Positions 46,407 through 62,194 of a stretch of DNA of 64,000 nt are shown here, one piece after another. Location of the stretch: assembly GCA_947628955.1 (NCBI GenBank), contig CANRBX010000003.1, forward strand, positions 1 through 64,000. The letters are read 5' to 3'. Origin of the DNA: an uncultured Lachnospiraceae bacterium. Lineage in GTDB: Bacteria > Bacillota > Clostridia > Lachnospirales > Lachnospiraceae. The translations under genes and the position numbers were made by a program. The notes below the pieces were generated by a model, which saw only the letters and a program-made list of their open reading frames with translations, was not told where the DNA came from and made no database searches. Every line of letters starts with the position of its first letter. Within the stretch, counting starts at the first letter, position 1.

Positions 46407-47498
46407 ATGCTGCGCTGGTATATCATGCAGACTTATACCGGACAGGAGGAAAAGCTGGTGGAGATGGTTCGCCGTGTTGTCCCCCGGGAATTCTACGACG
46501 ACTGCTTCGTTATTTACCATGAGCAGCTCTGGAAGCGCCACCAGGAAAATCAGATCCATATCCGTAGGGTCTTCCCGGGGTATGTGTTCATCACATCCGG
46601 GGATCCGGAGGGGCTGTTCCTCTGCCTGAAAAAGGTTCCGGCCATGTCGAAGCTGCTGGCAGACGGGATACCGGCAGACAGCGGGCTTACATTCCTTCCG
46701 ATGTATCCGGATGAGGCCGCTTTTCTGGGCAGCCTTCTGGACGAGGACCACATCATCCGGCTGTCTTACGTGGCGACGGATGGGAAGGACCATGTCACAT
46801 ATATTTCCGGGCCATTGAAATCATGTGTTTCAGGACATTCAAAGATTGATAGTTCCGAACATCTGGATAAATGTCGCTTCGGGCCTTCAAAGGAAGTTCC
46901 TTCCAGTCCTTCGATTTCGGAAGCGGCCCTTTCTGAACAGTTAACACCAGACAGCAGAAATACTGCAAACCCACCGGTAAGTTACCGGTTCCGGAAGCGT
47001 TACGCAGTGATCAGGGTACTGCTTTCCGGGGAGGAAAAGGAGATCCGTTTGGGGATCATCCTGAATGATGACATCCGCAGGGAGCTTTCCTATGGGAAAG
47101 TTGAGGCGCCGATGAAAATGCCGGAAAAATACCGGGTGCCGGAAATGGCCAGGACTGGCGTGGCCTGTCCTGATGGAAACACAGGCCTTGATAACAGGGC
47201 TTTCCTAGTTGGAGCGGCTGGTACTGCCAGGACTGGCAATGAAAAGTCTTTGCCTGTCGGAACAGGATTTTCCCAGAAAGAAAGCCCGCAGGGGAGCTTG
47301 CAGGATACGTCGGAGGATACGATACGGTGCCTGCCAGAGTTTGTTCCGGGAGATGCTGTGACCGTATCGGAAGGGAGCCTTGCCGGACTTCCGGCAGTCG
47401 TCTGCAGGGTGGGAAAGCAGAAAGCAAGGATCAAAGTATATCTGTTTGGACGGAATCTGGAAATGGAGGTACCGCTCAGCAGTCTGAAGAAGGTTTAG
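46407..47498 (+). CDS. loaP: LoaP-type NusG paralogue (processive antiterminator) with interrupted KOW and a second KOW domain
   Basis: Residues 1-110 match the NusG N-terminal domain as found in LoaP (MLRWYIMQTYTGQEEKLVEMVRRVV ... RRVFPGYVFITSGDPEGLFLCLKKVP), which binds RNA polymerase and lets it read through terminators in long biosynthetic operons. A first KOW domain starts at YISGPLKS and resumes at RKRYAVIRVLLSGEEKEIRLGII, interrupted by about 45 low-complexity residues (SSEHLDKCRFGPSKEVPSSPSI...). After a linker rich in Gly/Ser/Pro comes a second KOW (EFVPGDAVTVSEGSLAGLPAVVCRVGKQKARIKVYLFGRNLEMEVP). LoaP proteins are normally about 170-190 residues; this is 363. It is the first gene of the glycan locus, with GGAAAGGGG nine bases before ATG. 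Confidence 0.85.
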   Translation: MLRWYIMQTYTGQEEKLVEMVRRVVPREFYDDCFVIYHEQLWKRHQENQIHIRRVFPGYVFITSGDPEGLFLCLKKVPAMSKLLADGIPADSGLTFLPMYPDEAAFLGSLLDEDHIIRLSYVATDGKDHVTYISGPLKSCVSGHSKIDSSEHLDKCRFGPSKEVPSSPSISEAALSEQLTPDSRNTANPPVSYRFRKRYAVIRVLLSGEEKEIRLGIILNDDIRRELSYGKVEAPMKMPEKYRVPEMARTGVACPDGNTGLDNRAFLVGAAGTARTGNEKSLPVGTGFSQKESPQGSLQDTSEDTIRCLPEFVPGDAVTVSEGSLAGLPAVVCRVGKQKARIKVYLFGRNLEMEVPLSSLKKV

Positions 47499-47681: not shown

Positions 47682-48953
47682 ATGCAGACAGAAGCATTTG
47701 AGAAGAAGGTATGGCTCTCATCCCCGACGATGCATGGGGATGAGCTCCGGTATGTAACGGAGGCCATAGAGACAAACTGGGTCAGCACCGTGGGGGAGAA
47801 CCTGACGGAGCTGGAGAGACTGGCCTGCGGATACACGGGCTGCGGGAATGCGGTGGCCCTGTCATCCGGGACTGCTGCACTCCACCTGGCCGTGAAGCTG
47901 GCCGGGGAGAGGCTTTACGGACAACCAAGGGCAGGCCATGGGACACTGGAGGGCCGCAGGGTCTTCTGCTCGGATATGACATTTGACGCCACGGTAAACC
48001 CGGTGGCTTACGAGGGCGGAGAGGCAGTCTTCATTGACTCAGAATACGAGACCTGGAACATGGATCCGGAAGCGCTGGAGAAGGCATTTGGGATCTACCC
48101 GGAGGTGAAGCTGGTGGTGCTGGCGAACCTGTACGGGACGCCGGCAAAGCTGGACCAGATCCGGGATATATGCAATGCGCATGGGGCACTGCTGATTGAG
48201 GATGCGGCGGAATCCCTGGGAGCGACGTATAAGGGGATCCAGACAGGGAATTTCGGCGCTTATAACGTGATCTCCTTCAACGGGAACAAGATCATCACCG
48301 GGAGTTCCGGAGGGATGCTGCTGACGGATGACAGGGAGGCAGCGGACAAGGCCCGGAAATGGTCGACGCAGAGCCGGGAAGCGGCGCCGTGGTACCAGCA
48401 TGAGGAGCTGGGGTACAACTACCGGATGAGCAACATCATCGCGGGGATCGTGAGGGGCCAGTTCCCCTATCTGGATGAGCATATCCGGCAGAAGAAAGAG
48501 ATCTACATGAGGTACAGGGAAGGGTTCAGGGATCTGCCGGTACAGATGAACCCGTACATAGAGGGGAGCATGGAACCGAACTTCTGGCTGAGCTGTCTGC
48601 TGATCGACCGGGAAGCGATGTGCCGGCAGGTGAGGGGCGAGAAGGAAGCATTATATATAGAAGAAAAAGGAAAGAGCTGCCCGACGCAGATTTTGGAGAA
48701 GCTGACCTGGTGTAATGCGGAAGGACGCCCGATCTGGAAGCCGATGCATTTGCAGCCAGTGTACCGAATGAACCCGTTCGTCACAAAGGATGGGAGCGGA
48801 AGGGCGAGGTCAAATGCTTATATAAATACAGACGCTGCCGCAGACGTCGGAGCGGATATCTTTGGGCGGGGGCTGTGCCTGCCGAGCGACAACAAGATGA
48901 CCGAAGAGCAGCAGAACAGGGTTATTGATATCGTCCGCGGCTGCTTTCAATGA
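47682..48953 (+). CDS. DegT/DnrJ-family PLP aminotransferase, PglE-like (UDP-4-amino-sugar synthesis)
   Basis: A 423-residue sugar aminotransferase. It opens with WLSSPTMHGDELRYVTEAIETNWVSTVGENL, matching pilin-glycosylation (PglC of Neisseria) and Campylobacter PglE enzymes that convert UDP-4-keto-6-deoxy-GlcNAc into UDP-4-amino-2,4,6-trideoxy-GlcNAc. The PLP lysine is in SFNGNKIITGSSGG, and cofactor contacts are in SSGTAALHLAV and LIEDAAESLGATYKG. GAGGAAAGGAC precedes ATG 47682. With PglD-like acyltransferases (50697, 52250) and a PglC-like transferase (62187) it defines a bacillosamine-type pathway; the PglF-type dehydratase is not in this window. Confidence 0.92.
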   Translation: MQTEAFEKKVWLSSPTMHGDELRYVTEAIETNWVSTVGENLTELERLACGYTGCGNAVALSSGTAALHLAVKLAGERLYGQPRAGHGTLEGRRVFCSDMTFDATVNPVAYEGGEAVFIDSEYETWNMDPEALEKAFGIYPEVKLVVLANLYGTPAKLDQIRDICNAHGALLIEDAAESLGATYKGIQTGNFGAYNVISFNGNKIITGSSGGMLLTDDREAADKARKWSTQSREAAPWYQHEELGYNYRMSNIIAGIVRGQFPYLDEHIRQKKEIYMRYREGFRDLPVQMNPYIEGSMEPNFWLSCLLIDREAMCRQVRGEKEALYIEEKGKSCPTQILEKLTWCNAEGRPIWKPMHLQPVYRMNPFVTKDGSGRARSNAYINTDAAADVGADIFGRGLCLPSDNKMTEEQQNRVIDIVRGCFQ

Positions 48954-49140: not shown

Positions 49141-50691
49141 ATGTGGGATAAGAAGTATAGAGATGAGCTGGCCTGCCGCCGTTCTTCTGCGATGTCAGGC
49201 GGCGGGGAAAAGCGTATCGAAAACCAGCATAAAAAAGGGAAGCTGACGGCCAGAGAACGACTGGACTGTCTTTTTGACAAGGGCTCTTTTGTGGAGATCA
49301 ATACCCTGGTAGAATCTCAGGATTCACACTTCGGAATGGATAAAAAGAGAATACCCGGTGACGGGGTAGTTACCGGCTATGGTACTGTCAATGGCCGTGT
49401 AGTCTATGCATCCGCCCAGGACTTCACTGTGATCGGAGGAACTCTCGGGGAATATCATTCGAAAAAGATCTGCCATATTATGGATATGGCCCTTCAGATG
49501 AAAGCGCCGTATGTCAGCATCAATGATTCCGGCGGGGCCCGCATCGAGGAGGGGATCAGTTCCCTAGATGGCTATAGCGGGATTTTCTACCGGAACACGA
49601 AGGCCTCCGGTATTATCCCGCAGATATCTGTGATCATGGGTCCATGCGCAGGCGGCGCCTGCTATTCGCCGGCCATTACGGACTTTATCTTTATGACGAA
49701 AAGGACGGCCAATATGTTCATCACAGGGCCGGCAGTTGTGAAGGCCGTGGTTGGGGAGGACATCAGTGCGGAAGAACTTGGGGGTGCGGATGTCCATGCC
49801 GCTGAAAGCGGAGTAGTTCATTTTACTTATGATGATGACAAGGCCTGTCTGGATGGGGTGAAAAAACTCCTGTCATATCTGCCAGAAAATTGTGATGAGA
49901 AGCCGCCATTGGTGATAGGCAAGGCCAGGGATGAGTCTTACCGGCTGGAAGAAATCGTACCCGACAACCAGAGAAAATCGTATGACATGAAGGAAGTTAT
50001 CAATGCTTTCGTGGATACGGAGTCTTTCTTTGAGGTTCATGAAGAATTTGCCAGGAATATCATAGTCGGATTCGCCCGGATCGATGGGGAGACGATAGGC
50101 GTCGTAGGAAATAATCCCAAGGGGGGAATGGCAGGTTCTCTGGATATTGATTCTTCTGAAAAAGCCGCGAGGTTTGTCCGTTTCTGTGACTGTTTCAACA
50201 TCCCCCTGCTGACTCTCGTGGATGTACCGGGATTCTTCCCCGGCAGTAAGCAGGAGCATGGGGGAATCATCAGGCGGGGAGCCAAGCTCTTATACGCTTA
50301 TGCGGAAGCAACGGTACCGAAGGTCACCCTGATCCTGCGGAAGGCCTATGGCGGCGCGTATATAGCGATGAACAGCAAAGGAATGGGTGCCGATATCGTA
50401 TTCGCCTGGCCGATTGCCGAGACGGCTGTAATGGGCGCGGAAGGGGCTGTCGGCATCATGTACGGGAAGCAGATCGCGGCCTCCCAGGATCCGGAAACAG
50501 AGAAGAACAGGCTGGTGGCAGAATATGAAGGGCAGTTCATGACGCCATATATTGCGGCTGAACGGGGATACATTGATGAAGTCATCCTTCCGGAAGAAAC
50601 ACGGGGACGGATCCAAAGCGCCTTTGAGGCATTGAAGCTGAAGGACAGACAGGCGGCGGGCTTCCGGGCGCATGGGAATATTCCATTGTAA
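49141..50691 (+). CDS. Acyl-CoA carboxylase, carboxyltransferase (beta) subunit
   Basis: A 516-residue biotin-dependent carboxyltransferase of the PccB/MmdA/AccD group, which carboxylates acetyl- or propionyl-CoA to (methyl)malonyl-CoA. Both crotonase-fold halves are visible, with oxyanion elements GGARIEEGISSLDGYSGIF and GPCAGGACYSPAITDF in the first, and PGFFPGSKQEHGGIIRRGAKLLYAYAEATVPKV...KAYGGAYIAMNSKGMGAD in the second. Biotin carrier and biotin carboxylase genes are absent here and must be supplied in trans. It is out of place in a glycan locus unless it feeds the malonyl transacylase downstream. The ribosome site is weak (GAGAGAG far upstream). A 187-base gap before it contains a long-range GGGGC/GCCCC pairing. 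Confidence 0.93.
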   Translation: MWDKKYRDELACRRSSAMSGGGEKRIENQHKKGKLTARERLDCLFDKGSFVEINTLVESQDSHFGMDKKRIPGDGVVTGYGTVNGRVVYASAQDFTVIGGTLGEYHSKKICHIMDMALQMKAPYVSINDSGGARIEEGISSLDGYSGIFYRNTKASGIIPQISVIMGPCAGGACYSPAITDFIFMTKRTANMFITGPAVVKAVVGEDISAEELGGADVHAAESGVVHFTYDDDKACLDGVKKLLSYLPENCDEKPPLVIGKARDESYRLEEIVPDNQRKSYDMKEVINAFVDTESFFEVHEEFARNIIVGFARIDGETIGVVGNNPKGGMAGSLDIDSSEKAARFVRFCDCFNIPLLTLVDVPGFFPGSKQEHGGIIRRGAKLLYAYAEATVPKVTLILRKAYGGAYIAMNSKGMGADIVFAWPIAETAVMGAEGAVGIMYGKQIAASQDPETEKNRLVAEYEGQFMTPYIAAERGYIDEVILPEETRGRIQSAFEALKLKDRQAAGFRAHGNIPL

Positions 50692-50696
50692 GGAAG

Positions 50697-51341
50697 ATGA
50701 AAATGAAAAACATTGTGATTATTGGTGCCGGAGACCTGGGAAAAGAGATTGTCTGGCTGATTGAGGATATCAATAAAAGGAGGCCTACATACCTGATCCT
50801 TGGATTCCTGGATGATGAAATAGCTAAGAATCAGAAAGAGTTTTATGGGTATAAGGTTCTTGGGCCAGTGGACCGGCTGGATGAATTGACTGTGCCATTC
50901 AGTGGAGTCATGGCGTTTCAGGACGGCAGCGTCCGCAGAAGGATTGCTGAGTCGCACCCAAAAGTGGCGAACTGGGAGACAATTATCCACCCGACAGCTG
51001 TGATTGCGGATTCAAGTAAGATTGGGAAAGGAAGCATTTTTTTCCCGCAGACAACTGTTTCAGTAGATAGTCAGCTGGGAAAGTTTGGATTGTATTATAT
51101 TCACTCGACGGTCTGCAATGACTGCAGTGTTGGAAATTATGTTTCAGTGATGACCGGGGCATCAATTCTTGAACATGCGAAGGTCGGAGATGGATGTTTC
51201 CTTGCGGCAGGCAGCTGTGTATATCCGCACAGGCAAGTTGGCAAGGAAGTAAAAGCAGGAGTTGAGGCAACAATTTCCCGGGATTGCAGTGACGGCGCGG
51301 AAGTCAATGAGAAGGGATCGGGCTTTTTCTTATTCAAGTAG
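50697..51341 (+). CDS. PglD/NeuD-like sugar acyltransferase with the catalytic histidine replaced
   Basis: A 214-residue protein with an N-terminal Rossmann-like half (KNIVIIGAGDLGKEIVWLIEDIN, FLDDEI) and a C-terminal left-handed beta-helix of hexapeptide repeats. The family N- or O-acylates UDP-amino sugars from acyl-CoA. The active-site histidine of PglD lies in an E/N-H-D-C-x-I-G segment; here the matching segment is VCNDCSVGNYV, with Asn in place of His. It may be inactive, structural, or use another donor such as acyl-ACP. It sits between the carboxylase and fabD genes with gaps of only 5 and 17 bases, so co-translation is likely. Confidence 0.83.
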   Translation: MKMKNIVIIGAGDLGKEIVWLIEDINKRRPTYLILGFLDDEIAKNQKEFYGYKVLGPVDRLDELTVPFSGVMAFQDGSVRRRIAESHPKVANWETIIHPTAVIADSSKIGKGSIFFPQTTVSVDSQLGKFGLYYIHSTVCNDCSVGNYVSVMTGASILEHAKVGDGCFLAAGSCVYPHRQVGKEVKAGVEATISRDCSDGAEVNEKGSGFFLFK

Positions 51342-51358
51342 ACAGAAAAGGAGAAATC

Positions 51359-52231
51359 ATGGTAAACGCATTATTATTCCCCGGACAGGGATCCCAGGAA
51401 GTCGGAATGGGAAAAGAACTGTATGAACAGTTGCAACAAGCCAAAGCTCTGCTGGATGAAGCGTGTGACATCGCAGGATATGATCTGAAAGATCTGATGT
51501 TTAACGGCCCAATAGAGAAACTGACGGATACGAAATATGCCCAGCCGGCAATTTATATCTGCTCCGCCATGTATCTGGAAAAGGCGAAGCAAAACGGTCT
51601 GGAATATAGCTATGTGGCGGGGCACAGCCTGGGCGAATACAGCGCTCTTTATGCCGCAGGAGTTTTCAGCTTTGCAGATGGACTGCGGTTGATCTGCAGG
51701 CGCGGAGAGGCGATGAGCGATGAGAATGGAAAAGGAATTATGGCTGCGGTTCTTGGTTTGGACGAGAATGAGCTTCGGAATTATGTCGAAGAAACGCCGG
51801 GAGTGGTTATGGCAAATCTGAATACAAAGACGCAGATCGTTATTTCCGGTACAAAAGAAGGCGTAGACAGGATTGCGGTTGCTCTCTCCGGCAGGGAGGA
51901 TGTCAAGGTTCGGCAGTTGAATGTCAGTGCGGCGTTCCATAGCCCGCAGATGAAGGATGCGGCAGAGGTTATGGAAAAGGAGATAGAGAAAGTAAGTTTC
52001 CATGGGCCAAAGGCTTGCGTGGTATCGAATGTGACGGGAAAGCCGACGAAGAATATAAAAGAAATTCGAAAAAATCTTCTGCTGCAGATCACCGGGCAGG
52101 TCCGGTGGTATGACAGCATTATGGCAATGAAAAACGCTGGAGTGGAAGCATTCTATGAAGTTGGGAATGGACAGGTCCTGAGGAAGATGAACCGGGCCAT
52201 TACGCTTCAGCCCAAATGTTTCAGTATATAG
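51359..52231 (+). CDS. fabD: Malonyl-CoA:ACP transacylase
   Basis: A 290-residue transacylase that moves malonyl (or methylmalonyl) from CoA to an acyl carrier protein. It has the N-terminal GQGSQEVGMGKELYE, nucleophile elbow GHSLGEYSALYAAG (Ser about residue 90), and catalytic His in AAFHSPQM. AAAGGAG precedes ATG 51359. A dedicated copy beside two carrier proteins argues that malonyl-ACP is made for the locus itself rather than for general fatty acid synthesis, which should have its own fabD elsewhere. Confidence 0.94.
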   Translation: MVNALLFPGQGSQEVGMGKELYEQLQQAKALLDEACDIAGYDLKDLMFNGPIEKLTDTKYAQPAIYICSAMYLEKAKQNGLEYSYVAGHSLGEYSALYAAGVFSFADGLRLICRRGEAMSDENGKGIMAAVLGLDENELRNYVEETPGVVMANLNTKTQIVISGTKEGVDRIAVALSGREDVKVRQLNVSAAFHSPQMKDAAEVMEKEIEKVSFHGPKACVVSNVTGKPTKNIKEIRKNLLLQITGQVRWYDSIMAMKNAGVEAFYEVGNGQVLRKMNRAITLQPKCFSI

Positions 52232-52249
52232 GAGCCTGGAAAAAGAAAA

Positions 52250-52879
52250 ATGACAGATTTAATCATTGTTGGAGCAAGCGGATTTGGGCGGGAGCTCTTA
52301 GCTACAATAGAATCTATCAATGAGATTGAACCCACATGGAATGTCCTTGGGTTTATTGATGATGATCCTGATGCATTGGATGGATATGAGATAGACTATA
52401 AAGTCCTTGGTTCTATAACAGATTGGAAACCGAAAGGTGAGGAACTGTATGCACTTGGGATTGCAAATCCCAGGACAAAGGAAAAGATTGTTCCTATTCT
52501 CAAGAATAGAGGGGCGCGGTTTGCTACTGTGATTGCCCCTACAGCGACGGTGGAGAGAGGAACGAAGCTTGGAGAAGGGGTCGTAGCATTTGGGTATACA
52601 GGGATCAGCGTTAATGTCCGAGTTGGGAATTTTGTTTTCTTTAATGCCATGGTGGGCATCGGGCATGATGCTGATATAGGGGATTACTGTACATTTGGTC
52701 CCAAGGCCTGTATATCTGGAAAATCCTCAATCGGTAAATGTGTGAATGTTGGTGCACTTGCCTCAACATATCCGGGCGTATCTGTCGGAGATTATGCCAC
52801 TATTGGTATGAACAGCGCTGTTATAAGACGGGTTAAACCAAACACTACAGTTATTGGTGTACCCGCAAAAAAAATATAA
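52250..52879 (+). CDS. PglD/NeuD-like sugar acyltransferase (second copy, catalytic histidine present)
   Basis: A 209-residue protein with the same two-part plan: DLIIVGASGFGRELLATIESIN (nucleotide-sugar-binding half), then a left-handed beta-helix ending ...VGDYATIGMNSAVIRRVKPNTTVIGVPAKKI. Unlike its neighbour it keeps the catalytic histidine in GIGHDADIGDYCTFGP. It would acylate the 4-amino group made by the PglE-like aminotransferase. The donor is normally acetyl-CoA; adjacency to the carrier protein (20 bases downstream) raises the possibility of an acyl-ACP donor. Confidence 0.88.
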   Translation: MTDLIIVGASGFGRELLATIESINEIEPTWNVLGFIDDDPDALDGYEIDYKVLGSITDWKPKGEELYALGIANPRTKEKIVPILKNRGARFATVIAPTATVERGTKLGEGVVAFGYTGISVNVRVGNFVFFNAMVGIGHDADIGDYCTFGPKACISGKSSIGKCVNVGALASTYPGVSVGDYATIGMNSAVIRRVKPNTTVIGVPAKKI

Positions 52880-52899
52880 TACTCTATAGGAGGAGAAAA

Positions 52900-53121
52900 A
52901 TGAATAACGAAAAGAAAATGGAATTACTGGCGGACATCCTTGATATTGAGGCCGAGGAGCTGACCCCGGAAACCAGATTGGTTGATATGGAGGAGTGGGA
53001 TTCTATCGCTGCACTATCCTTTATCGCAATGATGGATGAGGAATTCGGTAAGGAGTTCAAAGGTGCGGATGTCAAGAAAATTGTTACCGTTCAAGACGCC
53101 CTGAATGTCATGGAGGAGTAA
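52900..53121 (+). CDS. Acyl carrier protein (ACP1)
   Basis: A 73-residue four-helix carrier, highly acidic, with the phosphopantetheine attachment serine in EWDSIAALSF (Ser about 35). TAGGAGGAG precedes ATG 52900. It lies between an acyltransferase and a KAS III gene, and is presumably the carrier loaded by FabD. The D-S-I context differs from fatty-acid ACP (D-S-L), which suggests a specialised carrier. Modification by the Sfp-type enzyme at 33695 or by a housekeeping AcpS is possible. Confidence 0.92.
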   Translation: MNNEKKMELLADILDIEAEELTPETRLVDMEEWDSIAALSFIAMMDEEFGKEFKGADVKKIVTVQDALNVMEE

Positions 53122-53126
53122 TACAG

Positions 53127-54188
53127 GTGCTAGCTAAGGAGTTTCATAATGTCCGGATCACCGGACTTGCGTGCGCTGTCCCGAACAATAAGGTCAGAAC
53201 GGACAGCTATGCTTACCATTTCGGAGAAGAAGCCGTTGCCAAGTTTAAAAAGGCTACCGGAATAGAAGCGCGTTTTCTTTCTGACGGTCGTCAGACTGCG
53301 TCAGATCTTTGCTATGTTGCAGCAAGAAAATTGATGGAGAAAAAAGGTCTGACCGAAGATGATATTGACGCGCTTATTTTTATTACGCAGACGCCGGATT
53401 ACAAAATCCCTTCTTCCGCATTTGTTCTCCATAAAAGACTTAACATCAAAAAGGACTGCATTGTTTTTGACGTTAATCTGGGGTGCTCTGGCTATGTCAA
53501 CGGTATCTATATAGTAGCAGGACTTATTGAAAGCGGCACTATCAATCGCGCTTTGCTGTTGGTAGGAGATGCGGATACAAATCATCAGATTACGGATGAT
53601 ACGTCTTTCACTATGATGTTTGGAGATGCAGGATCTGCTACCTTGCTGGAGCGCGACGAAGGAAACATCCGAGGCCTGATTCGCTCTGACGGCGATGGTT
53701 TCAACACGCTCATTACTCCGATTCCGGGAGCAAGATTCCCCGGAGTTTACCCTGGTATGGAGGCGGATGACCTTAAGATTGCAAAAAAAATGGACGGCGA
53801 CGACGTATTCCTGTTTGCCATCACAAAGGTTCCGAAGCTTTTCAAGGAGTTTTTCACGACATTCGGCACGAACGTGGACGACTACGATTATGTGATACTT
53901 CATCAGGCAAATCTGATGATCATCAACCAGATAGCGAAGAAGCTTAAAGTACCGGCAGAGAAAATACCGGTCTCTTTAACGGAGTATGGGAATACGGATG
54001 GTGCTTCTGTTCCAGTCGGTATTGTGGATCTCTGCGAAAAAATGGAAGGAACAAGGAAATTAAACCTGATCACTTCCGGTTTTGGCATCGGTCTGTCCTG
54101 GGGAGTCGTGTCGTTCGAAATGGATACCTCTGACGTTTTGCCCATGATTTTTACAGACGATTATTTCAGGGAGGGAAAAGATGTCTGA
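53127..54188 (+). CDS. Beta-ketoacyl-ACP synthase III-like enzyme (KAS III-1)
   Basis: A 353-residue thiolase-fold enzyme with an intact Cys-His-Asn triad: Cys about 120 in VNLGCSGYVNG, His about 259 in LHQANLMI, Asn about 289 in EYGNTDGASVP. KAS III condenses an acyl starter with malonyl-ACP; some relatives instead transfer acyl groups to sugars or alcohols. Start is GTG 53127, 10-15 bases after GGAGGAG at the end of ACP1. Its 3' end overlaps the following reductase gene by 8 bases, so synthase and reductase are coupled. Confidence 0.92.
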   Translation: MLAKEFHNVRITGLACAVPNNKVRTDSYAYHFGEEAVAKFKKATGIEARFLSDGRQTASDLCYVAARKLMEKKGLTEDDIDALIFITQTPDYKIPSSAFVLHKRLNIKKDCIVFDVNLGCSGYVNGIYIVAGLIESGTINRALLLVGDADTNHQITDDTSFTMMFGDAGSATLLERDEGNIRGLIRSDGDGFNTLITPIPGARFPGVYPGMEADDLKIAKKMDGDDVFLFAITKVPKLFKEFFTTFGTNVDDYDYVILHQANLMIINQIAKKLKVPAEKIPVSLTEYGNTDGASVPVGIVDLCEKMEGTRKLNLITSGFGIGLSWGVVSFEMDTSDVLPMIFTDDYFREGKDV

Positions 54189-54900
54189 AGCAAAAACAGT
54201 ATTAGTAACCGGATGTACCTCTGGCATTGGTCTTGTGGTGTCGCACTATTTGCATGATCAGGGGTATCGACTAGTACTGGTTGGAAGAAACGAGGAAAAG
54301 CTCAAAAAGGTTTCCTCGGAAACAGGAAATGCGCCTTACATTGTATGTGACCTTGAGGATGGCGATCAAATTCGTGGGATTTTCGATTATTGCATCAAAA
54401 TTGGAATGAAGTTGAGCGGTTTGATACACTGCGCCGGATTTACTTTAAATTCGCCTATTCGTTCATTGCGGGATGAGGATATGAAAAGGCAAATGCAAAT
54501 TCATTATTATGCTTTTGTAGACTTGTGCAAGAATTTTTACAGGAGAAGTATTTCCTCTGATGGATCCAGTATTGTAGTCATGTCGTCTTTTTCAACCTAT
54601 ACGAAGAGAAAAGGTTCCGTAGCTTATGCCGCGGCAAAAAGCGCGGTAAATACAGCAGTGTCCATTGCGTCTAAAGAGTTCTTGAAACGGTCTATTCGGG
54701 TAAACGCGATTTTATCGGCATATGTTGATACCCCATTGATTGATGGCCTGGACGAGCTTCTGGATGTATCTGAAGTACAACCGATGGGTCTCATTCCACC
54801 AAAAGCCATTGCTGAATTGGCGGAGTTTCTGATTTCGGATAAGTCAAAATACATAACCGGCGCTCTTATTCCGGTATCGGCAGGCATGGAGGGCAACTGA
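54181..54900 (+). CDS. Short-chain dehydrogenase/reductase (SDR-1), FabG-like
   Basis: A 239-residue NAD(P)H-dependent reductase: TGCTSGIG cofactor loop, CAG in place of the usual NNAG (LIHCAGF), catalytic Ser in VVMSSFST and YxxxK in VAYAAAKSAV. The RN motif (LVGRNEEK) hints at NADPH. In this setting it would reduce the beta-keto group made by KAS III-1. It overlaps KAS III-1 and ends two bases before the next reductase. Confidence 0.92.
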   Translation: MSEAKTVLVTGCTSGIGLVVSHYLHDQGYRLVLVGRNEEKLKKVSSETGNAPYIVCDLEDGDQIRGIFDYCIKIGMKLSGLIHCAGFTLNSPIRSLRDEDMKRQMQIHYYAFVDLCKNFYRRSISSDGSSIVVMSSFSTYTKRKGSVAYAAAKSAVNTAVSIASKEFLKRSIRVNAILSAYVDTPLIDGLDELLDVSEVQPMGLIPPKAIAELAEFLISDKSKYITGALIPVSAGMEGN

Positions 54901-54901
54901 T

Positions 54902-55663
54902 ATGTGGAATCCGTATGACTTCAGTGGAAAAAGATTTATCGTTACCGGCGCCGGCTCAGGCATAGGGAAAGCGACCGCTGTGCGTCTCTCGGAGCAGGGG
55001 GCCGAGGTATGTTTGATCGTGAGGAGCGAAAGACGGGCCGAAGAAGTAAAGCCCCTTCTGCCCGGGACGGGCCATCGGTTTTACATCAAGGATCTGAACG
55101 AATCCGGCGGATATAAGGAGATTTTTGATGACATTGTCAGCGACGGGCATAAGATTGATGGATTGGTTTACAGCGCCGGGATCGCCAAAATTCTGCCGGT
55201 GACCCTGTTCAATAAAGCGAACATGGATGAGAGCATGACGGTCAATTTATATTCCTTCGCTGAAATGGTGGGGCTTTTATCAAAAAAGAAGTACCACGAT
55301 AAGGCTAACGTGGTGGGCGTGTCATCCATTTCTGTCCGATATCCGCAGAAATGTCAGGGAATTTATTTAGCGACAAAAGCAGGCATGAACGCTATGGTCA
55401 CATCGATGGCCATCGAGCTGGCGGATAAGAATATTCGTATCAATACCCTGATGCCCGGAGCCGTAAACACCCCCATGTTGAAAGCAGCCCATGCGGACAA
55501 GACGAAAGAGCAAATCGAAGAGGTTCTGAAAAAATCCGTTCTTGGCCTAGCGGAACCCGAGGATATAGCGGACATCATCCTGTTTTTACTTTCGGATGCA
55601 TCGAGGATGATTACGGGCCGGGAAATATACGCCGACGGCGGGCTGATAAACGTATGCATCTGA
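54902..55663 (+). CDS. Short-chain dehydrogenase/reductase (SDR-2)
   Basis: A 253-residue SDR with TGAGSGIG, SAG (LVYSAGIAK), Ser in VVGVSSIS and YxxxK in GIYLATKAG; C-terminus RMITGREIYADGGLI as in classical SDRs. It has IVRSERR after the second strand, so NADPH is likely. Two consecutive reductases suggest either two reduction steps or different chain lengths or stereochemistry; one could also act on the sugar. Confidence 0.92.
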   Translation: MWNPYDFSGKRFIVTGAGSGIGKATAVRLSEQGAEVCLIVRSERRAEEVKPLLPGTGHRFYIKDLNESGGYKEIFDDIVSDGHKIDGLVYSAGIAKILPVTLFNKANMDESMTVNLYSFAEMVGLLSKKKYHDKANVVGVSSISVRYPQKCQGIYLATKAGMNAMVTSMAIELADKNIRINTLMPGAVNTPMLKAAHADKTKEQIEEVLKKSVLGLAEPEDIADIILFLLSDASRMITGREIYADGGLINVCI

Positions 55664-55688
55664 ATTATTGAGAGGGAGTGTGAAATCA

Positions 55689-56546
55689 TTGGACGGGCTT
55701 TTTTCGGATTCTAACGGCAAAATTTATTCTGCTCAGGATGTTTACAATTCTCTTCGGGATATAGGGGCTGGGGACTGCGGCAGCTTGTTTATACATTCCG
55801 ACGTGATGTTCGGCAGCCCGTTGCCCGGATTTAAACGGCGGGAGTATCTCAGCACGCTATATCAGGTCGTAGAAAGATTGGGCGTGAAGCAAATCATCGT
55901 TCCGACGTTTACATACAGTTTTTGCAATAATGAGGATTACGACGTTTTGAACAGCAAAACCTCTATGGGGGCATTTAACGAGTATGTGCGAAAATTGGAC
56001 GGAAGGTATAGAACTATTGACCCGCTTCTTTCGGTTTCTGTCCCCTCTGCACTGAAGCGGAAATTTGAAAATATAAGCAATCATTCTCTTGGAGTTGACA
56101 GCGGGCTAGACCGGCTCCATCACCTTGACGGTGTGAAATTCCTCTTTTTGGGTGCGGAAATGGCAGACTGCTTTACATATGTTCATTATGTTGAGAAGAT
56201 GATGGATGTTCCGTACAGATTTGATATGGCGTTTGAGGGTGATATTGTTGATTACGATAACAAACGTTCAAGACGCAGGCAGGTTATCCATACACAGTGT
56301 GGCGGTGTAAAGCTGCCGCCAAAATATGATTATTTTGAAAACAGTATGGTTGAAAAAGGAATGCTGAAAAAGAAAAGACTGGGCAATAAGTATGTCGCCT
56401 GCATTTCGGAATGTGATGCATATAGGGAAATTGCAAACAATATAAAAAACAATATCAATTATTACCTGGAAGAACCTTTTGCGGCGGGAGATTTAACGCA
56501 CATATACACATACGACCGCACGAAGGGTAGAATAACGCATTGCTGA
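55689..56546 (+). CDS. AAC(3)-family N-acyltransferase-like protein
   Basis: About 285 residues of the Antibiotic_NAT family, whose aminoglycoside members acetylate a 3-amino group using acetyl-CoA. Recognisable parts are SLFIHSDVMFGSP (usual L-V-H-x-S), IIVPTFTYSFC, and DPLLSVSV with the later SLGVDSGLDRL region in place of the H-S-x-G-x-x-S-P loop. Members in polysaccharide loci are thought to acylate amino sugars, so this is a good candidate for transferring the carrier-bound acyl group. The track start TTG 55668 precedes the GAGGGAG site; TTG 55689 has the best spacing, GTG 55680 is the alternative. Confidence 0.78.
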   Translation: MDGLFSDSNGKIYSAQDVYNSLRDIGAGDCGSLFIHSDVMFGSPLPGFKRREYLSTLYQVVERLGVKQIIVPTFTYSFCNNEDYDVLNSKTSMGAFNEYVRKLDGRYRTIDPLLSVSVPSALKRKFENISNHSLGVDSGLDRLHHLDGVKFLFLGAEMADCFTYVHYVEKMMDVPYRFDMAFEGDIVDYDNKRSRRRQVIHTQCGGVKLPPKYDYFENSMVEKGMLKKKRLGNKYVACISECDAYREIANNIKNNINYYLEEPFAAGDLTHIYTYDRTKGRITHC

Positions 56547-56559
56547 AGGAGAAAGAAAA

Positions 56560-58083
56560 GTGAAAACCCATTTGCTCGATTTCTTTGAAATTACGCAGAA
56601 GGCCAAGCCGGATGCTGTCGCCGTGGTTCACAAAAAAGAAAGCATCACCTTTTCCGCCTTGAAAGACCGGGCAGAAAAACTGGCAACGATCCTTGAAGAT
56701 AATATTGGCGGAAGGATCAACTCTCCTATTGCGGTCTTTCTCCCCAAGGAGATCAACACGGTCACGGCAGATCTGGGGATCATGTATTCCTGCAATCCGT
56801 TCATGAATCTTGATGTGAAAACACCTAGGGAAAGAATCATGAATATCTTCGAGATGGTGAAGCCCTCTGCTGTTATCACAAGGAAGATTTATAAAGGTAT
56901 TCTGGAGGGCCTGGATATTCCGATTGTGTTCATGGATGAAATTGACTGGAGCGGTGTGAAATTCAGCGAAGCCCATCTCATCGAAAAGAGAAAGCGGCTC
57001 ATAGATACAGATCCGTTTTGCCTCATTAATACGTCCGGGTCGACCGGGACCCCGAAGGGTGTTGTCTTAAATCACAGAAGCTTCTTCGATTTTATGGCAG
57101 TCTCCAATGAGAACTTTGGCTTTGACGGTTCCGAGATACTGGGTTCCCTGTCACCGGTTGTGTTTGATATTTTTGATTTTGAATTGTGTATGCTGATGGT
57201 GAACGGTTCCCAGCTGGTGCTTCTGGATGCGTTTCTGGCATCGTTCCCGGTTCGATTGCTGGAGGCATTGGCGGAGAATAAGGTAAGTTTTATTTTCTGG
57301 GTGCCGTCCATCATGGTCAACATAGCCAACTTAAAGCTTTTGGAGCGTGTACCTCTGCCAGATTTGAAGTTGGTATGGTTTGCAGGGGAAGTCTTCCCCA
57401 CGAAACAGTTTTTGGTGTGGTACGATAATCTTCCCAATACAAAATTCGCAAACCTTTATGGCCCTATTGAGATCACGCTTGACTGCACGTTCTACGTTGT
57501 CAATGAACGGCCGGCGGAGAGCGAACCCCTGCCGATCGGGGTCCCTTACCGCAATACGGATATCCTGATCCTGAATGAGGATGACCGGCCCTGTGGGACA
57601 GGGGAGGAAGGGGAACTTTGTGTACGCGGAACTTCCCTTGCTATGGGTTATTACAATAATCCGGAGAAGACGGCCGCAGCCTTTACACAGAATCCGCTAA
57701 ATAAGTCTTATCCGGAGACCATCTATCGGACCGGCGATATGGTTTACCGGCGGGAAGACGGGAACATCATGTTCAAGGGAAGGAAAGACAGCCTGATCAA
57801 GCATATGGGTTATCGGATAGAGCTTGGAGAGATCGAACACGCTATAGAGAATGATCTTAAGATCGTCCGGTATTGCTGTGCGGTTTACCAGTACGCAAAA
57901 AAGGCGATCGTTCTCTATTATGAGAATGACTCTGAAATCTCTGAAAAGGATTTCCGAAGTGCATTGGGAAAGGTATTCCCCGCGTATATGATTCCGGGAA
58001 TATTTATAAAAACGGACGAATTGCCACGGAATACAAACGGAAAGATAGACAGGCTGTTATTAAAGAACTTGGCAAATAACTGA
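56560..58083 (+). CDS. Amino-acid adenylation enzyme, DltA-like (stand-alone A domain)
   Basis: A 507-residue AMP-forming ligase. Core motifs: A3 NTSGSTGTPKGVVLNHRS (from about residue 157), A4-like VVFDIFDFEL whose Asp typically holds an amino group, A5 NLYGPIEITLDCTFY, A7 YRTGDMVYRREDG, A8 FKGRKDSLIKHMGYRIELGEIE and A10 NGKIDRLLL. It resembles D-alanine-carrier ligase and NRPS A domains, so it probably activates an amino acid or similar acid and loads it on ACP2 encoded 13 bases downstream. No DltB/DltD genes are present, so lipoteichoic acid alanylation is not its role. GTG start 56560 with AAGGAG. Confidence 0.92.
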   Translation: MKTHLLDFFEITQKAKPDAVAVVHKKESITFSALKDRAEKLATILEDNIGGRINSPIAVFLPKEINTVTADLGIMYSCNPFMNLDVKTPRERIMNIFEMVKPSAVITRKIYKGILEGLDIPIVFMDEIDWSGVKFSEAHLIEKRKRLIDTDPFCLINTSGSTGTPKGVVLNHRSFFDFMAVSNENFGFDGSEILGSLSPVVFDIFDFELCMLMVNGSQLVLLDAFLASFPVRLLEALAENKVSFIFWVPSIMVNIANLKLLERVPLPDLKLVWFAGEVFPTKQFLVWYDNLPNTKFANLYGPIEITLDCTFYVVNERPAESEPLPIGVPYRNTDILILNEDDRPCGTGEEGELCVRGTSLAMGYYNNPEKTAAAFTQNPLNKSYPETIYRTGDMVYRREDGNIMFKGRKDSLIKHMGYRIELGEIEHAIENDLKIVRYCCAVYQYAKKAIVLYYENDSEISEKDFRSALGKVFPAYMIPGIFIKTDELPRNTNGKIDRLLLKNLANN

Positions 58084-58096
58084 AAGGACAATTGAT

Positions 58097-58327
58097 ATGA
58101 ACGATATCGCGGAGATGCTGATTGAATTGAAGCCAGAGGTCAACTTCGGGGAAAGCGATGATTTTATTATGGATGGCCTTCTGGATTCCTTTGATATTAT
58201 CTCGCTTACGAGTATGATCGAGGAAAAATACGGGATAACTGTAGACGGGCTGGACATTGTCCCAGAGAATTTCTGCTCTGTCGAAGCGGTTATAGAGCTT
58301 ATTAGGAAGTCCGGAGGAACAGTCTGA
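58097..58327 (+). CDS. Carrier protein (ACP2)
   Basis: A 76-residue acidic helical carrier with the phosphopantetheine serine in GLLDSFDIISL (Ser about 31); the D-S-F-D context resembles DltC-like and freestanding peptidyl carriers more than fatty-acid ACP. It follows the adenylation gene and its stop overlaps the start of the second KAS III (TGATG), so A domain, carrier and KAS III-2 form a translational unit. Confidence 0.9.
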   Translation: MNDIAEMLIELKPEVNFGESDDFIMDGLLDSFDIISLTSMIEEKYGITVDGLDIVPENFCSVEAVIELIRKSGGTV

Positions 58328-59397
58328 TGCAGACGCGGTTTATCGATAAGGCCATCACTTCCATCCTGGGTGTATTACCGGAGACGGTGGGGCTGTTTGA
58401 TGATGAGGTCGGCAATTATACTTTTCCGCCGAAGCAGACACTGCGTCTAAAAAGGATGATGGGTTTTAAACAACACCGTCTGGCGAAAGGAACTACTACG
58501 GTGTCTGATTTTGGAACATACGGACTAAGATATATGCTGGATAATGGGTGGATCCGTGCGGATGAAATCGGTGCGCTTATTGTGGTAACGCTTTGCCCGG
58601 ATTACTTTGTGCCGCATGTCAGCAATATCGTACAGGCGGACTGTGGGCTTCCGACGGATACGATCTGCATGGATATCGCGCAGGGCTGTTGCGGTTTTAT
58701 CCTGGGGCTCATGCAGGCATTTCTGCTGTTGGAACACATGGAGGGGAAAAAGGCCGTCCTGATTAATGGAGATGTACTGAGCCATAAGATTTCAAAGCGT
58801 GACAGGAATGATTATCCGCTGATCGGTGATGCGGCGGCGATAACGGTCGTGGAGAATCGGAAAAATACGCCGGAGGTCTACTTTGAGTTCCATAATGACG
58901 GTTCCCGGGGGAATGCGCTTAAAATACCCGCGGGAGCGTTCCGGATGCCATCATCCCCTGAAACAGCGGAAATGACAGATCAGGGGGATGGAAATTTCAG
59001 GGCGCTCGACCATATGCATATGGACGGGGGCGGGGTATTTAATTTTGTCCAGACCGAGGTACCGCCGATGTTGGAACATGCTTTTAAGGAGGCAGGCCTT
59101 TCTGTCAATGAAATAGACTGTTTCCTGTTCCACCAGCCAAACCGCTTTATGTTGCAGAAGCTTGCGGAGAAGGCGCAGCTGCCATTTGAAAAACTTCCCA
59201 TGAACCTGGTTGAGAACTATGGCAATCCCAGCGGAGCATCCATACCGCTTACGGCCATCCTGAATTACAGGGATGAGCTGTTGAATGAAAAGAAAAGGTG
59301 CTGCCTGTCTGCGTTTGGTTCCGGGCTGGCCTGGGGAGCCATGTTTATGGAAATAGGCGGGCTTGAGCATTGCGAAATGATAGAAACAGATCTGTAA
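58327..59397 (+). CDS. Beta-ketoacyl-ACP synthase III-like enzyme (KAS III-2)
   Basis: A 356-residue thiolase-fold enzyme only distantly like KAS III-1. The triad is present: Cys about 121 in DIAQGCCGFILG, His about 269 in LFHQPNRFML, Asn about 300 in ENYGNPSGASIP. The sequence AQGC-C in place of the usual S-A-A-C-S/A-G is characteristic of divergent KAS III groups. Coupled to ACP2, it may take the aminoacyl (or other) starter from ACP2 and condense it with malonyl-ACP1, or act as an acyltransferase. Confidence 0.9.
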   Translation: MQTRFIDKAITSILGVLPETVGLFDDEVGNYTFPPKQTLRLKRMMGFKQHRLAKGTTTVSDFGTYGLRYMLDNGWIRADEIGALIVVTLCPDYFVPHVSNIVQADCGLPTDTICMDIAQGCCGFILGLMQAFLLLEHMEGKKAVLINGDVLSHKISKRDRNDYPLIGDAAAITVVENRKNTPEVYFEFHNDGSRGNALKIPAGAFRMPSSPETAEMTDQGDGNFRALDHMHMDGGGVFNFVQTEVPPMLEHAFKEAGLSVNEIDCFLFHQPNRFMLQKLAEKAQLPFEKLPMNLVENYGNPSGASIPLTAILNYRDELLNEKKRCCLSAFGSGLAWGAMFMEIGGLEHCEMIETDL

Positions 59398-59439
59398 TTG
59401 ATAAATTGGAAAGCAAATTCGTTTCGGCTGAGGTGCATA

Positions 59440-60354
59440 ATGAGGTTTAAGAAAATACTGGTCATAGGTTCCGGGAAAATAGCGTCAGACTGTGTCAGGA
59501 TCCTGTGCAGGGACATGGAAATAACATATATTGAGGCCATAGAATCGGCAAACAACCAGTTTTCCATGTTGAAAAAAGCATGTGTAAAATATGCCCTGCG
59601 CTACAGGACATTATTAAAAAAGGAGCTTATTTCGGAAGCGATTATGGAAGCTTCGCAGGCAGGGCCCCTGCTGATTATCAGCGCCAATAACAGGTACCTT
59701 TTTCCTGCCGGTATATGTGAACTGCCGGAGGTGGAAATCATTAATTTCCATTACGGGTACCTTCCCAGATACAGGGGGATGAACATTCCGACATGGGTCA
59801 TTTATAACAACGAGCCATTTACAGGCGTCACGTGGCATTATGTCACAAGCGAGGTAGACCGCGGTGAGATCATCATCCAGCAGAAGATTCTGCTCTCCGA
59901 AGACACCACGGCTTACGAAGTGGTACGCGATGGCATGAGAGCCGGGACGGAGCTGTTCCGGTTCTTTATCCCGGAACTTCTGAAAAAAAAGATAAGCGGG
60001 AAGGAGATACTTACCAATGAGCATGTATACCTGAACAAGCGTCTTCCCGAGGATGGAAAACTGGACCCGGACAAGGATGTTTTGGAAATATACAGGCTGC
60101 TGCGAAGCTTCGATTACGGAAGGACAGGGACCCTGAAGCCGTTAAAGGTGTGTATGGACGGTACGGATTATCTTGTGGAAGGCTATTCCCTGGAAGATTC
60201 CGGTGTCGAGGAGAAAACGGTGCTGCTTCAGCAGGACAGGCTGGTGATTACCGGAGGGAGAAAGACGTTGATGATCGATCTGAGGAAAGAGGATGAAGAG
60301 GATAGATATCGGCAGCGGTATGAGCATCTATCAGTTTACAGGCAGAACTCTTGA
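59440..60354 (+). CDS. Formyltransferase-family protein (Fmt-like, sugar N-formylation candidate)
   Basis: About 304 residues from ATG 59440 (track start is 14 codons early; AGGTG precedes). The N10-formyl-tetrahydrofolate transferase fold is recognised by the catalytic Asn-His-Asp set: INFHYGYLPRYRGMNIPTW (Asn about 102, His two further on) and TGVTWHYVTSEVDRGEIII (Asp). A C-terminal Fmt_C-like domain may be present (KPLKVCMDG...). Relatives in glycan loci formylate 4-amino sugars (VioF, WlaRD types). It may offer an alternative N-cap to the acyl group made by the carrier-protein set. Its 3' end overlaps the next gene by 62 bases. Confidence 0.85.
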   Translation: MRFKKILVIGSGKIASDCVRILCRDMEITYIEAIESANNQFSMLKKACVKYALRYRTLLKKELISEAIMEASQAGPLLIISANNRYLFPAGICELPEVEIINFHYGYLPRYRGMNIPTWVIYNNEPFTGVTWHYVTSEVDRGEIIIQQKILLSEDTTAYEVVRDGMRAGTELFRFFIPELLKKKISGKEILTNEHVYLNKRLPEDGKLDPDKDVLEIYRLLRSFDYGRTGTLKPLKVCMDGTDYLVEGYSLEDSGVEEKTVLLQQDRLVITGGRKTLMIDLRKEDEEDRYRQRYEHLSVYRQNS

Positions 60355-61087
60355 TGCCAATTCATTTGTCATAATGGAGGGAAATGAGGCGCTTATCATT
60401 GACGCGGTTGACAGCAGTGATATGGTCTCTTTTTTATTGGATCGGTATGAGGGAAAGGATGCCAATGGCGTGTCTTCTGAATTATGGACGCTTGACAGAG
60501 GGATTGCCGGCGGCGGAACCCCGAAACTGACCATCCTGTTGACGCATGAGCATTTTGACCATATCAGTGGCTTGGCGGTTTTAAGGGATAGATTCAGGTG
60601 CCATGTGGTTTCTTCCGGGGACTGCAGTGCGCGGATACAGTCGTCGCAGACAAACCTGTCTTCGATAGGGGATGCTCTATTGCTAATGCACAGCGGGATG
60701 CAACAGGAGCCACACGATACCATTCCGCGATACGGTGCGGATGCGTCGGATGAAGAATTTATTCAGGACAGCGTTATTGTATGGCATGGACATAACATTT
60801 TTTGCCATCTTATGCGCGGGCACTCATTGGGGTCTGTGGGCTATATCCTTGACGGGAGTATTCTGTTCTCTGGAGACGAAATACTTGCGATTCCGACATT
60901 GACCAGACTGCCCGGGGGAAATACGAAGGCGTTCTGGTACGAGGATATGCCATGGCTGAAATCAATCAGTGATCAGATTTTCTTGGTGTGTCCGGGCCAT
61001 GGGACACCGGGAAAGTTGGAAGATATGATAAGCGGCAATACAATGCCGAAAAGATTCAGGAATATGGGAGAGAAAGCAAATGCATAG
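60293..61087 (+). CDS. Metallo-beta-lactamase-fold hydrolase, copy 1
   Basis: A 264-residue MBL-fold protein with [11 protein letters not shown] (first metal cluster), the later His in RGHSLGSVGYI, Asp in LFSGDEIL and His in CPGHGTPG. The start at 60293 overlaps the formyltransferase, but alignment with copy 2 (MKRIDIGSG against MDKVDIGGG) supports it. Function in a glycan locus is unknown; some MBL enzymes are thioesterases, so editing of carrier-bound acyl groups is conceivable. It is the first half of a roughly 1.1-kb duplication. Confidence 0.85.
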   Translation: MKRIDIGSGMSIYQFTGRTLDANSFVIMEGNEALIIDAVDSSDMVSFLLDRYEGKDANGVSSELWTLDRGIAGGGTPKLTILLTHEHFDHISGLAVLRDRFRCHVVSSGDCSARIQSSQTNLSSIGDALLLMHSGMQQEPHDTIPRYGADASDEEFIQDSVIVWHGHNIFCHLMRGHSLGSVGYILDGSILFSGDEILAIPTLTRLPGGNTKAFWYEDMPWLKSISDQIFLVCPGHGTPGKLEDMISGNTMPKRFRNMGEKANA

Positions 61088-61366: not shown

Positions 61367-61405
61367 AAAAACATATCTATATAAGGTTTATTGTGGTGGA
61401 AAGTG

Positions 61406-62194
61406 ATGGACAAAGTAGACATCGGTGGCGGCATTTACATTTACCGGTTTGAAGGTGATTATTTCGATGCCAATTCATATATCATAATAGAAGGAAATGA
61501 GGCGCTTATCATTGACGCAGTTGACAGCAGTGATATGGTCTCTTTTTTATTGGGCGAATATGAGGGAGGGGATACTAATGCCATGTTCTCTGAATTATGG
61601 ATGCCTGACAGAGAGACTGCCGGTGGTGGGAATCCGGGATTGACTATCCTGCTGACGCATGAACATTTTGACCATATCGGCGGGCTGGAGACGCTGCGCA
61701 GCCGGTTCAGATGTCATGTAATCGCGTCGAAAGAATGCAGCAGACGGATCCAGTCATCCCAGGCCAACCTGTCTTCGATCGGGGATACTCTGCTGGCCAT
61801 GCATAACGGAACAGGGCCGAAGAAATTGATCCCGAGATATGAAGCAGCGGCGGCAGATGCGGAATTTCCAGATGAATGTTCCATCATGTGGAACGGGCAC
61901 AGGATATTGTGCCATCCTATGCGCGGGCATTCGCCCGGCTCCGCCGGATACATTCTGGATGGGAAAATCCTGTTTTCCGGAGATGAGATCCTTCCGATCC
62001 CGACAGTGACCAGGCTGCCCGGAGGGGATACGAGGGCGTTCTGGTATGAGGATATGCCATGGCTGGAATCGCTCGGGACCCAGCTCTCTTTAGTGTGTCC
62101 GGGCCATGGGACGCCGGGGAAGCTGGAAGATATGATAAGCGTCAATGCGATGCCGAAAAGGTTCAGGAATATGGGAGAGAAAGCAAATGCATAG
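61406..62194 (+). CDS. Metallo-beta-lactamase-fold hydrolase, copy 2
   Basis: A 262-residue paralogue of copy 1, sharing long identical stretches ([28 protein letters not shown], the [14 protein letters not shown] end). All metal ligands are kept ([36 protein letters not shown]). Start ATG 61406 has GGTGGAAAG upstream. It overlaps the sugar transferase gene by 8 bases, as copy 1 overlaps its truncated version. Both copies look intact, so the duplication may be recent or both may be useful. Confidence 0.87.

Follow-up and report, generated by a model that had tools for sequence, protein, structure and literature searches.

A KAS III protein encoded with an adenylation enzyme and an aminoacyl-type carrier in a Lachnospiraceae surface-polysaccharide cluster: possible amino-acid-primed acyl building

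Can a KAS III enzyme be primed by an amino acid held on a carrier protein? The question is raised by a stretch of 64,000 nucleotides from an uncultured Lachnospiraceae bacterium (GCA_947628955.1, contig CANRBX010000003.1, positions 1 to 64,000; hereafter the window), in which a stand-alone adenylation enzyme (A), a carrier (ACP2) and a KAS III protein (KS2) are encoded in succession on the plus strand. The first-pass annotation treated the three as one translational unit and proposed that an aminoacyl starter is condensed with malonyl-ACP. The open reading frames were re-read at 56560-58083 (A, 507 aa), 58097-58327 (ACP2, 76 aa) and 58327-59397 (KS2, 356 aa), spaced by 13 and -1 bases, in agreement with that description. 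The start codon of A is GTG, preceded by AAGGAG; ACP2 and KS2 overlap in TGATG, and a GGAGG inside ACP2 precedes KS2. A plausible ribosome-binding site lies upstream of each of the three genes.

The unit sits in a surface-polysaccharide gene cluster. A plus-strand run from 49141 to 60354, with intergenic gaps of -8 to 20 bases, encodes in order a carboxyltransferase (mmdA/pccB-like, 49141-50691; TIGR01117, 749 bits), the proposed supply of malonyl-CoA; a NeuD/PglD-like acyltransferase (50697-51341), assigned through its resemblance to a second copy; a FabD-like malonyl transferase (51359-52231; GHSLGEYSAL), with homologues in loci L066 and L071; the second, NeuD/PglD/VioB-like acyltransferase (52250-52879); a fatty-acid-type carrier, ACP1 (52900-53121), the proposed bearer of malonyl and beta-ketoacyl groups; a second KAS III, KS1 (53127-54188), of a group other than KS2 and missing from several relatives; the FabG-like reductase SDR1 (54181-54900); the FabG-like ketoreductase SDR2 (54902-55663), part of the conserved core; an AAC(3)-family N-acyltransferase (55668-56546; PF02522, 71.6 bits), proposed to transfer the acyl group to an amino sugar and adjoining A in many relatives too; A, ACP2 and KS2; and a formyltransferase (59398-60354), 0 bases after KS2. 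Upstream, a DegT-type sugar aminotransferase (47682-48953, plus strand), assigned by sequence, is the proposed source of the amino sugar; its homologues head the clusters of relatives. Beyond the formyltransferase follow two metallo-beta-lactamase-fold proteins, a sugar transferase and a LicD-like protein. The metallo-beta-lactamase-fold proteins (60293-61087 and 61391-62194, plus strand) are tandem copies, 71% identical, the first being a possible thioesterase; single homologues are found in several related clusters, in L102 beside and after KS2. A NusG-like (LoaP/UpxY-type) gene recognized by eye upstream of the cluster (46407-47498) probably encodes an antiterminator for the long operon.

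The nature of the starter depends in the first place on A, an NRPS/DltA-like enzyme (PF00501, 191 bits) whose best model is the amino-acid adenylation domain (TIGR01733; 307.1 bits, just under the curated cut-off of 317.4). The motifs A3 to A10 had been described as intact; this holds for A3 and A6-A10, but A5 reads NLYGPIEIT, with Ile in place of the usual GPTE, and this Ile is kept in close orthologues. Alignment to GrsA (whose numbering is used here, the reference being verified against 1AMU) gave the specificity code DIFFWALLDK, which retains Lys517 as well as Asp235, the residue that binds the alpha-amine. These features support the assignment of A to the NRPS-like enzymes of alpha-amino-acid type. 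Bulky residues line the pocket for the side chain and suggest that the latter is small; among alpha-amino acids, our guess at the substrate would be Gly, Ala or Ser. The AlphaFold model of A (mean pLDDT 45) is too poor for use of the pocket. The same code is found in L066, L067, L068, L070, L072, L088 and L102, and with one change in L069.

A and ACP2 belong to the same superfamily as the DltA-DltC pair, but a DltA/DltC role was ruled out by the score of A against TIGR01734 (244.8 bits, far under the cut-off of 559.9) and by the lack of the usual partners: as the first-pass annotation had indicated, no MBOAT protein (DltB) was found on the contig, and the 94% complete genome lacks DltD. The window further differs from a dlt system in its other code and in the attached KS2. 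A dlt-like set consisting of an A domain, a carrier, a decarboxylase-like gene and an MBOAT protein is found on another contig of the same genome (G000 contig C39, L099), again without DltD.

ACP2 has an intact phosphopantetheine serine (GLLDSFD) in a DltC-like GLLDS motif. Among proteins of solved structure, stand-alone PCP/aminoacyl carrier proteins match ACP2 best, and fatty-acid ACPs match ACP1 best. In KS2 the catalytic residues Cys121, His269 and Asn300 are intact, which, as read from the sequence, is the triad of decarboxylating KAS III enzymes. The AlphaFold model of KS2 (mean pLDDT 71, medium confidence) matches the KAS III fold, best 4EFI (Z 36.5, rmsd 3.0, 316 residues aligned). PqsD, which has the KAS III fold, is primed by an amino(aryl) acid and is extended with malonyl, is among the matches; its starter is anthraniloyl-CoA, not an aminoacyl carrier protein. 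KS2 shares fold and triad with FabH, but scores 145.8 bits against TIGR00747 (cut-off 292), has Arg at position 32, and is linked to an aminoacyl carrier. In a KAS III tree of 70 proteins, KS2 and 26 further proteins form one clade (100/100 support) apart from FabH and the KS1 type. HQPN replaces HQAN in 27/27 of them, and outside the clade also in one KS1-type protein (L125). The CoA-contact residues do not tell starter types apart, Trp32 being lost in KS1 and KS2 alike and Arg151 being retained in KS2.

The triad also bears on whether a carbon-carbon bond is formed. AfcL and other KAS III-like enzymes that acylate nitrogen have Cys/His/Asp, and in the AFC-BC11 pathway AfcQ, AfcK and AfcL are a stand-alone A domain, a carrier and a KAS III-like protein that handle an aminoacyl thioester (PMC12186527). 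This is the same three-part make-up as A, ACP2 and KS2, and AfcL, which stores beta-alanyl peptides, catalyses amide bond formation (PMC12186527); KS2 might likewise transfer the aminoacyl group carried by ACP2 onto an amine or a hydroxyl, with no carbon-carbon bond made. We regard such a role as improbable: Asn is at the third triad place in every aligned KS2 protein, and in loci that lack KS1 the ketoreductase and ACP1 of the core would have no beta-keto substrate. The Afc system differs further in its substrate, derived from Asp/beta-Ala, its amide product and its end product, a lipopeptide (PMC12186527).

Relatives of the unit were drawn from 299 genomes of the family, then from the order, the phylum, a second family, contig collections and plasmid records; the contig collections, searched with KS2, yielded three loci only. 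Contigs of close relatives from metagenome-assembled genomes carry the labels Lachnospiraceae or Clostridia. In six of the 27 KS2 loci the sequence breaks off less than 3 kb upstream of KS2; the remaining 21 have enough flank. An NRPS-like A domain is present in the cluster in all 21, with Asp235 in 20/20 readable A domains; in the 21st locus (L084) a transposase gene splits the A gene, and the stretch with Asp235 is missing. Among KAS III glycan clusters without KS2, 0/7 have an A domain with Asp235 (either no A domain or one without this residue). Fisher's test on this contrast gave 8e-7, a value that is descriptive, since the loci are related and not independent samples. ACP2 lies -23 to +12 bases from KS2 in 22 of 24 assessable loci. 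The coupling of KAS III to an aminoacyl-type carrier had been called unusual; it is so beside textbook cases, but it recurs in several families of Bacillota. L084 (394-4233), in which the A gene is interrupted by the transposase-like gene and the formyltransferase is split over two open reading frames, has the appearance of a decaying copy of the unit.

The same comparison addresses the alternative that A activates a hydroxy, fatty or aryl acid, the unit being a fatty-acyl-primed variant. In L117, L120, L123 and L125 an acyl-CoA-ligase-like (FadD-like) protein without Asp235, A444, lies closer to ACP2-KS2 than A does, several loci of the second family have such a protein beside ACP2-KS2, and we know of no exact or close match to the code of A among known codes. 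Both would fit this alternative, which we nevertheless judge very unlikely, given Asp235 and Lys517 in the readable A partners of KS2, the lack of Asp235 in the A domains of other KAS III glycan clusters and the amino-acid adenylation domain as best model of A (307 bits). Side-by-side A domains with different codes (DILFLAMVDK, DILCLAMVDK or DIFFWALLDK, plus DNLFLALVDK) are found in L123, L127, L128, L086 and L064, and perhaps serve two amino acids or a dipeptide. Together, A444 beside ACP2-KS2 and the paired Asp235 A domains suggest that the kit is modular and that ACP2 may sometimes be loaded otherwise.

Related arrangements occur around other KAS III proteins. Two Parabacteroides distasonis plasmids (L103, L104) bear glycan clusters with KAS III, carrier(s) and an AMP-binding protein without Asp235, L103 also with a carrier-KAS overlap; judged by sequence, Bacteroidota share the architecture but with a different starter. 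The genome of the window itself has a second KAS III acyl cluster (G000 contig C4, 38001-58000; L078), containing a carboxyltransferase (68%), two NeuD proteins, FabD, two KS1-type KAS proteins, SDRs, split transketolase-like genes and a ligase without Asp235.

Whether KS2 makes the beta-ketoacyl group can be approached through loci in which it stands alone. Within the roughly 8-15 kb viewed to either side, KS2 is the sole KAS in L068, L071, L086, L102, L122 and L128. These loci nevertheless keep ACP1 and a FabG-like reductase, and KS2 is therefore the likely source of the beta-ketoacyl group there. L102 (Paenibacillus cellulosilyticus) is an isolated island of eight genes (ACP1-SDR2-AAC3-A-X-ACP2-KS2-MBL, X being a GNAT protein) among unrelated genes. 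Its AAC3 is the single sugar-acyltransferase candidate besides the GNAT protein, and one joint product, made from the amino acid and two malonyl carbons, is the simplest reading. Loci with KS1 tend to have two to four SDR genes and the KS1-less L068, L071, L086 and L102 have one, with L066 and L128 as exceptions; this loose trend suggests that KS1 may serve a further round of extension or the synthesis of a different acyl group.

In the main rival, KS2 is an ordinary KAS III primed by acetyl- or another acyl-CoA and would give 3-hydroxybutyryl-ACP1 with SDR2, while the amino acid from A-ACP2 would either be attached on its own or form an amide with the hydroxyacyl group. N-(3-hydroxybutyryl)aminoacyl sugars occur in O-antigens. 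The retained Arg151 agrees with such a role, and A with a carrier but without KS2 is found beside flagellin genes in L072, whose code is also DIFFWALLDK, and beside nonulosonate genes in L073; the L072 code indicates that direct use of the aminoacyl group may occur too. In F. psychrophilum, KAS proteins, an ACP, a ketoreductase and a PglD-type transferase make a plain 3,5-dihydroxyhexanoyl group (PMC6519341). Against it stand the A domain in 21/21 assessable KS2 loci, despite KAS III sets of other kinds that lack an A domain of amino-acid type; the carrier that abuts KS2, which is ACP2 and not ACP1; and the formyltransferase in place of the GNAT protein, which leaves no enzyme to join two acyl parts. 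This explanation is possible but rather unlikely.

Under the preferred reading, condensation primed by the amino acid, the amine would have to be considered as well. GNAT protein X is present in most relatives, often directly after KS2, where the window has the formyltransferase; no homologue of it was found in or near the window. A formyltransferase or GNAT protein is encoded in 19/21 loci, the exceptions, L085 and L124, being cut by contig ends, and it lies between A and ACP2 in L084 and L086 (formyltransferase) and in L102, L118 and L128 (GNAT). That one or the other accompanies the unit, sometimes between A and ACP2, suggests capping of the amine, and on these sequence grounds the formyltransferase downstream of KS2 probably caps the aminoacyl amine. 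In linear gramicidin synthase the F domain formylates an aminoacyl amine, and the F-A-PCP part of LgrA likewise brings together a formyltransferase, an A domain and a carrier, with clear similarity for A and weak similarity for the formyltransferase; LgrA, however, is one protein that feeds a condensation domain, whereas the window has free proteins and a KAS III. The window formyltransferase resembles sugar formyltransferases more than it does the gramicidin F domain and may accordingly act on the sugar.

The first-pass proposal of amino-acid-primed condensation thus has sequence evidence for the types of A and ACP2, the triad of KS2, the malonyl supply (FabD and carboxyltransferase) and the linkage of KS2 to A-ACP2; transfer from ACP2 to KS2 and formation of the carbon-carbon bond are predicted. 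That proposal took no account of the formyltransferase after KS2 or of the second KAS III set. From gene order, protein families, key residues and linkage, all read from the sequence, we infer the reactions and their order, the amino acid and the sugar as follows. A would adenylate a small alpha-amino acid and load it onto ACP2, and the formyltransferase (GNAT in most relatives) would cap the amine of the aminoacyl-ACP2. Cys121 of KS2 would receive the capped aminoacyl group from ACP2 and KS2 would condense it with malonyl-ACP1, the malonyl being provided by the carboxyltransferase and FabD. SDR2 would reduce the ketone, yielding a gamma-(formyl)amino-beta-hydroxyacyl-ACP1, and in the window the KS1/SDR1 set may add a further round. 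Finally, the AAC(3)-like or a PglD-like transferase would form an amide with the amino sugar from the DegT aminotransferase. For the outline of this scheme, an acyl-building unit for a surface glycan in which an amino acid is loaded, extended by two carbons and put on an amino sugar, we see an even chance.

The nearest described pathway is that of the F. psychrophilum O-antigen, in which wfpC-wfpG encode an ACP, two KAS proteins, a ketoreductase and a PglD-type transferase that place 3,5-dihydroxyhexanoyl on Qui2NAc4N (PMC6519341). The polysaccharide cluster of the window likewise combines an ACP and a KAS pair with a ketoreductase and a PglD-like transferase; it adds A-ACP2 and the formyltransferase (GNAT in relatives), whereas the wfp group is plain dihydroxyhexanoyl with no amino acid, and no adenylation enzyme is named in the passages on the wfp pathway (PMC6519341). 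Amino-acid decoration is found in clostridial flagellar glycans, as N-methyl-glutamyl legionaminic acid in C. botulinum and a glycine/alanine-taurine cap in C. difficile, and by analogy the window unit would be a hybrid of such decoration and wfp-type acyl building. Campylobacter Cj1303/Cj1307/Cj1308 is a candidate parallel. In the open-access literature, which leaves out most subscription papers, no description of a glycan pathway with A, carrier and KAS III was found.

The wider reading, plausible but a little short of evenly balanced, is that the HQPN clade of KAS III is dedicated to starters on aminoacyl carriers, capped by a formyltransferase or GNAT protein, and belongs to a modular kit of free-standing enzymes that, across Bacillota, decorates surface glycans with N-capped gamma-amino-beta-hydroxyacyl groups. 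If true, free-standing amino-acid activation, KAS III condensation and sugar N-acylation would be joined in one kit, which would offer a small soluble enzyme set for making gamma-amino-beta-hydroxy acids, and the combination of HQPN with an Asp235 A domain would give a sequence rule by which the acyl groups of glycans in gut Bacillota could be predicted.
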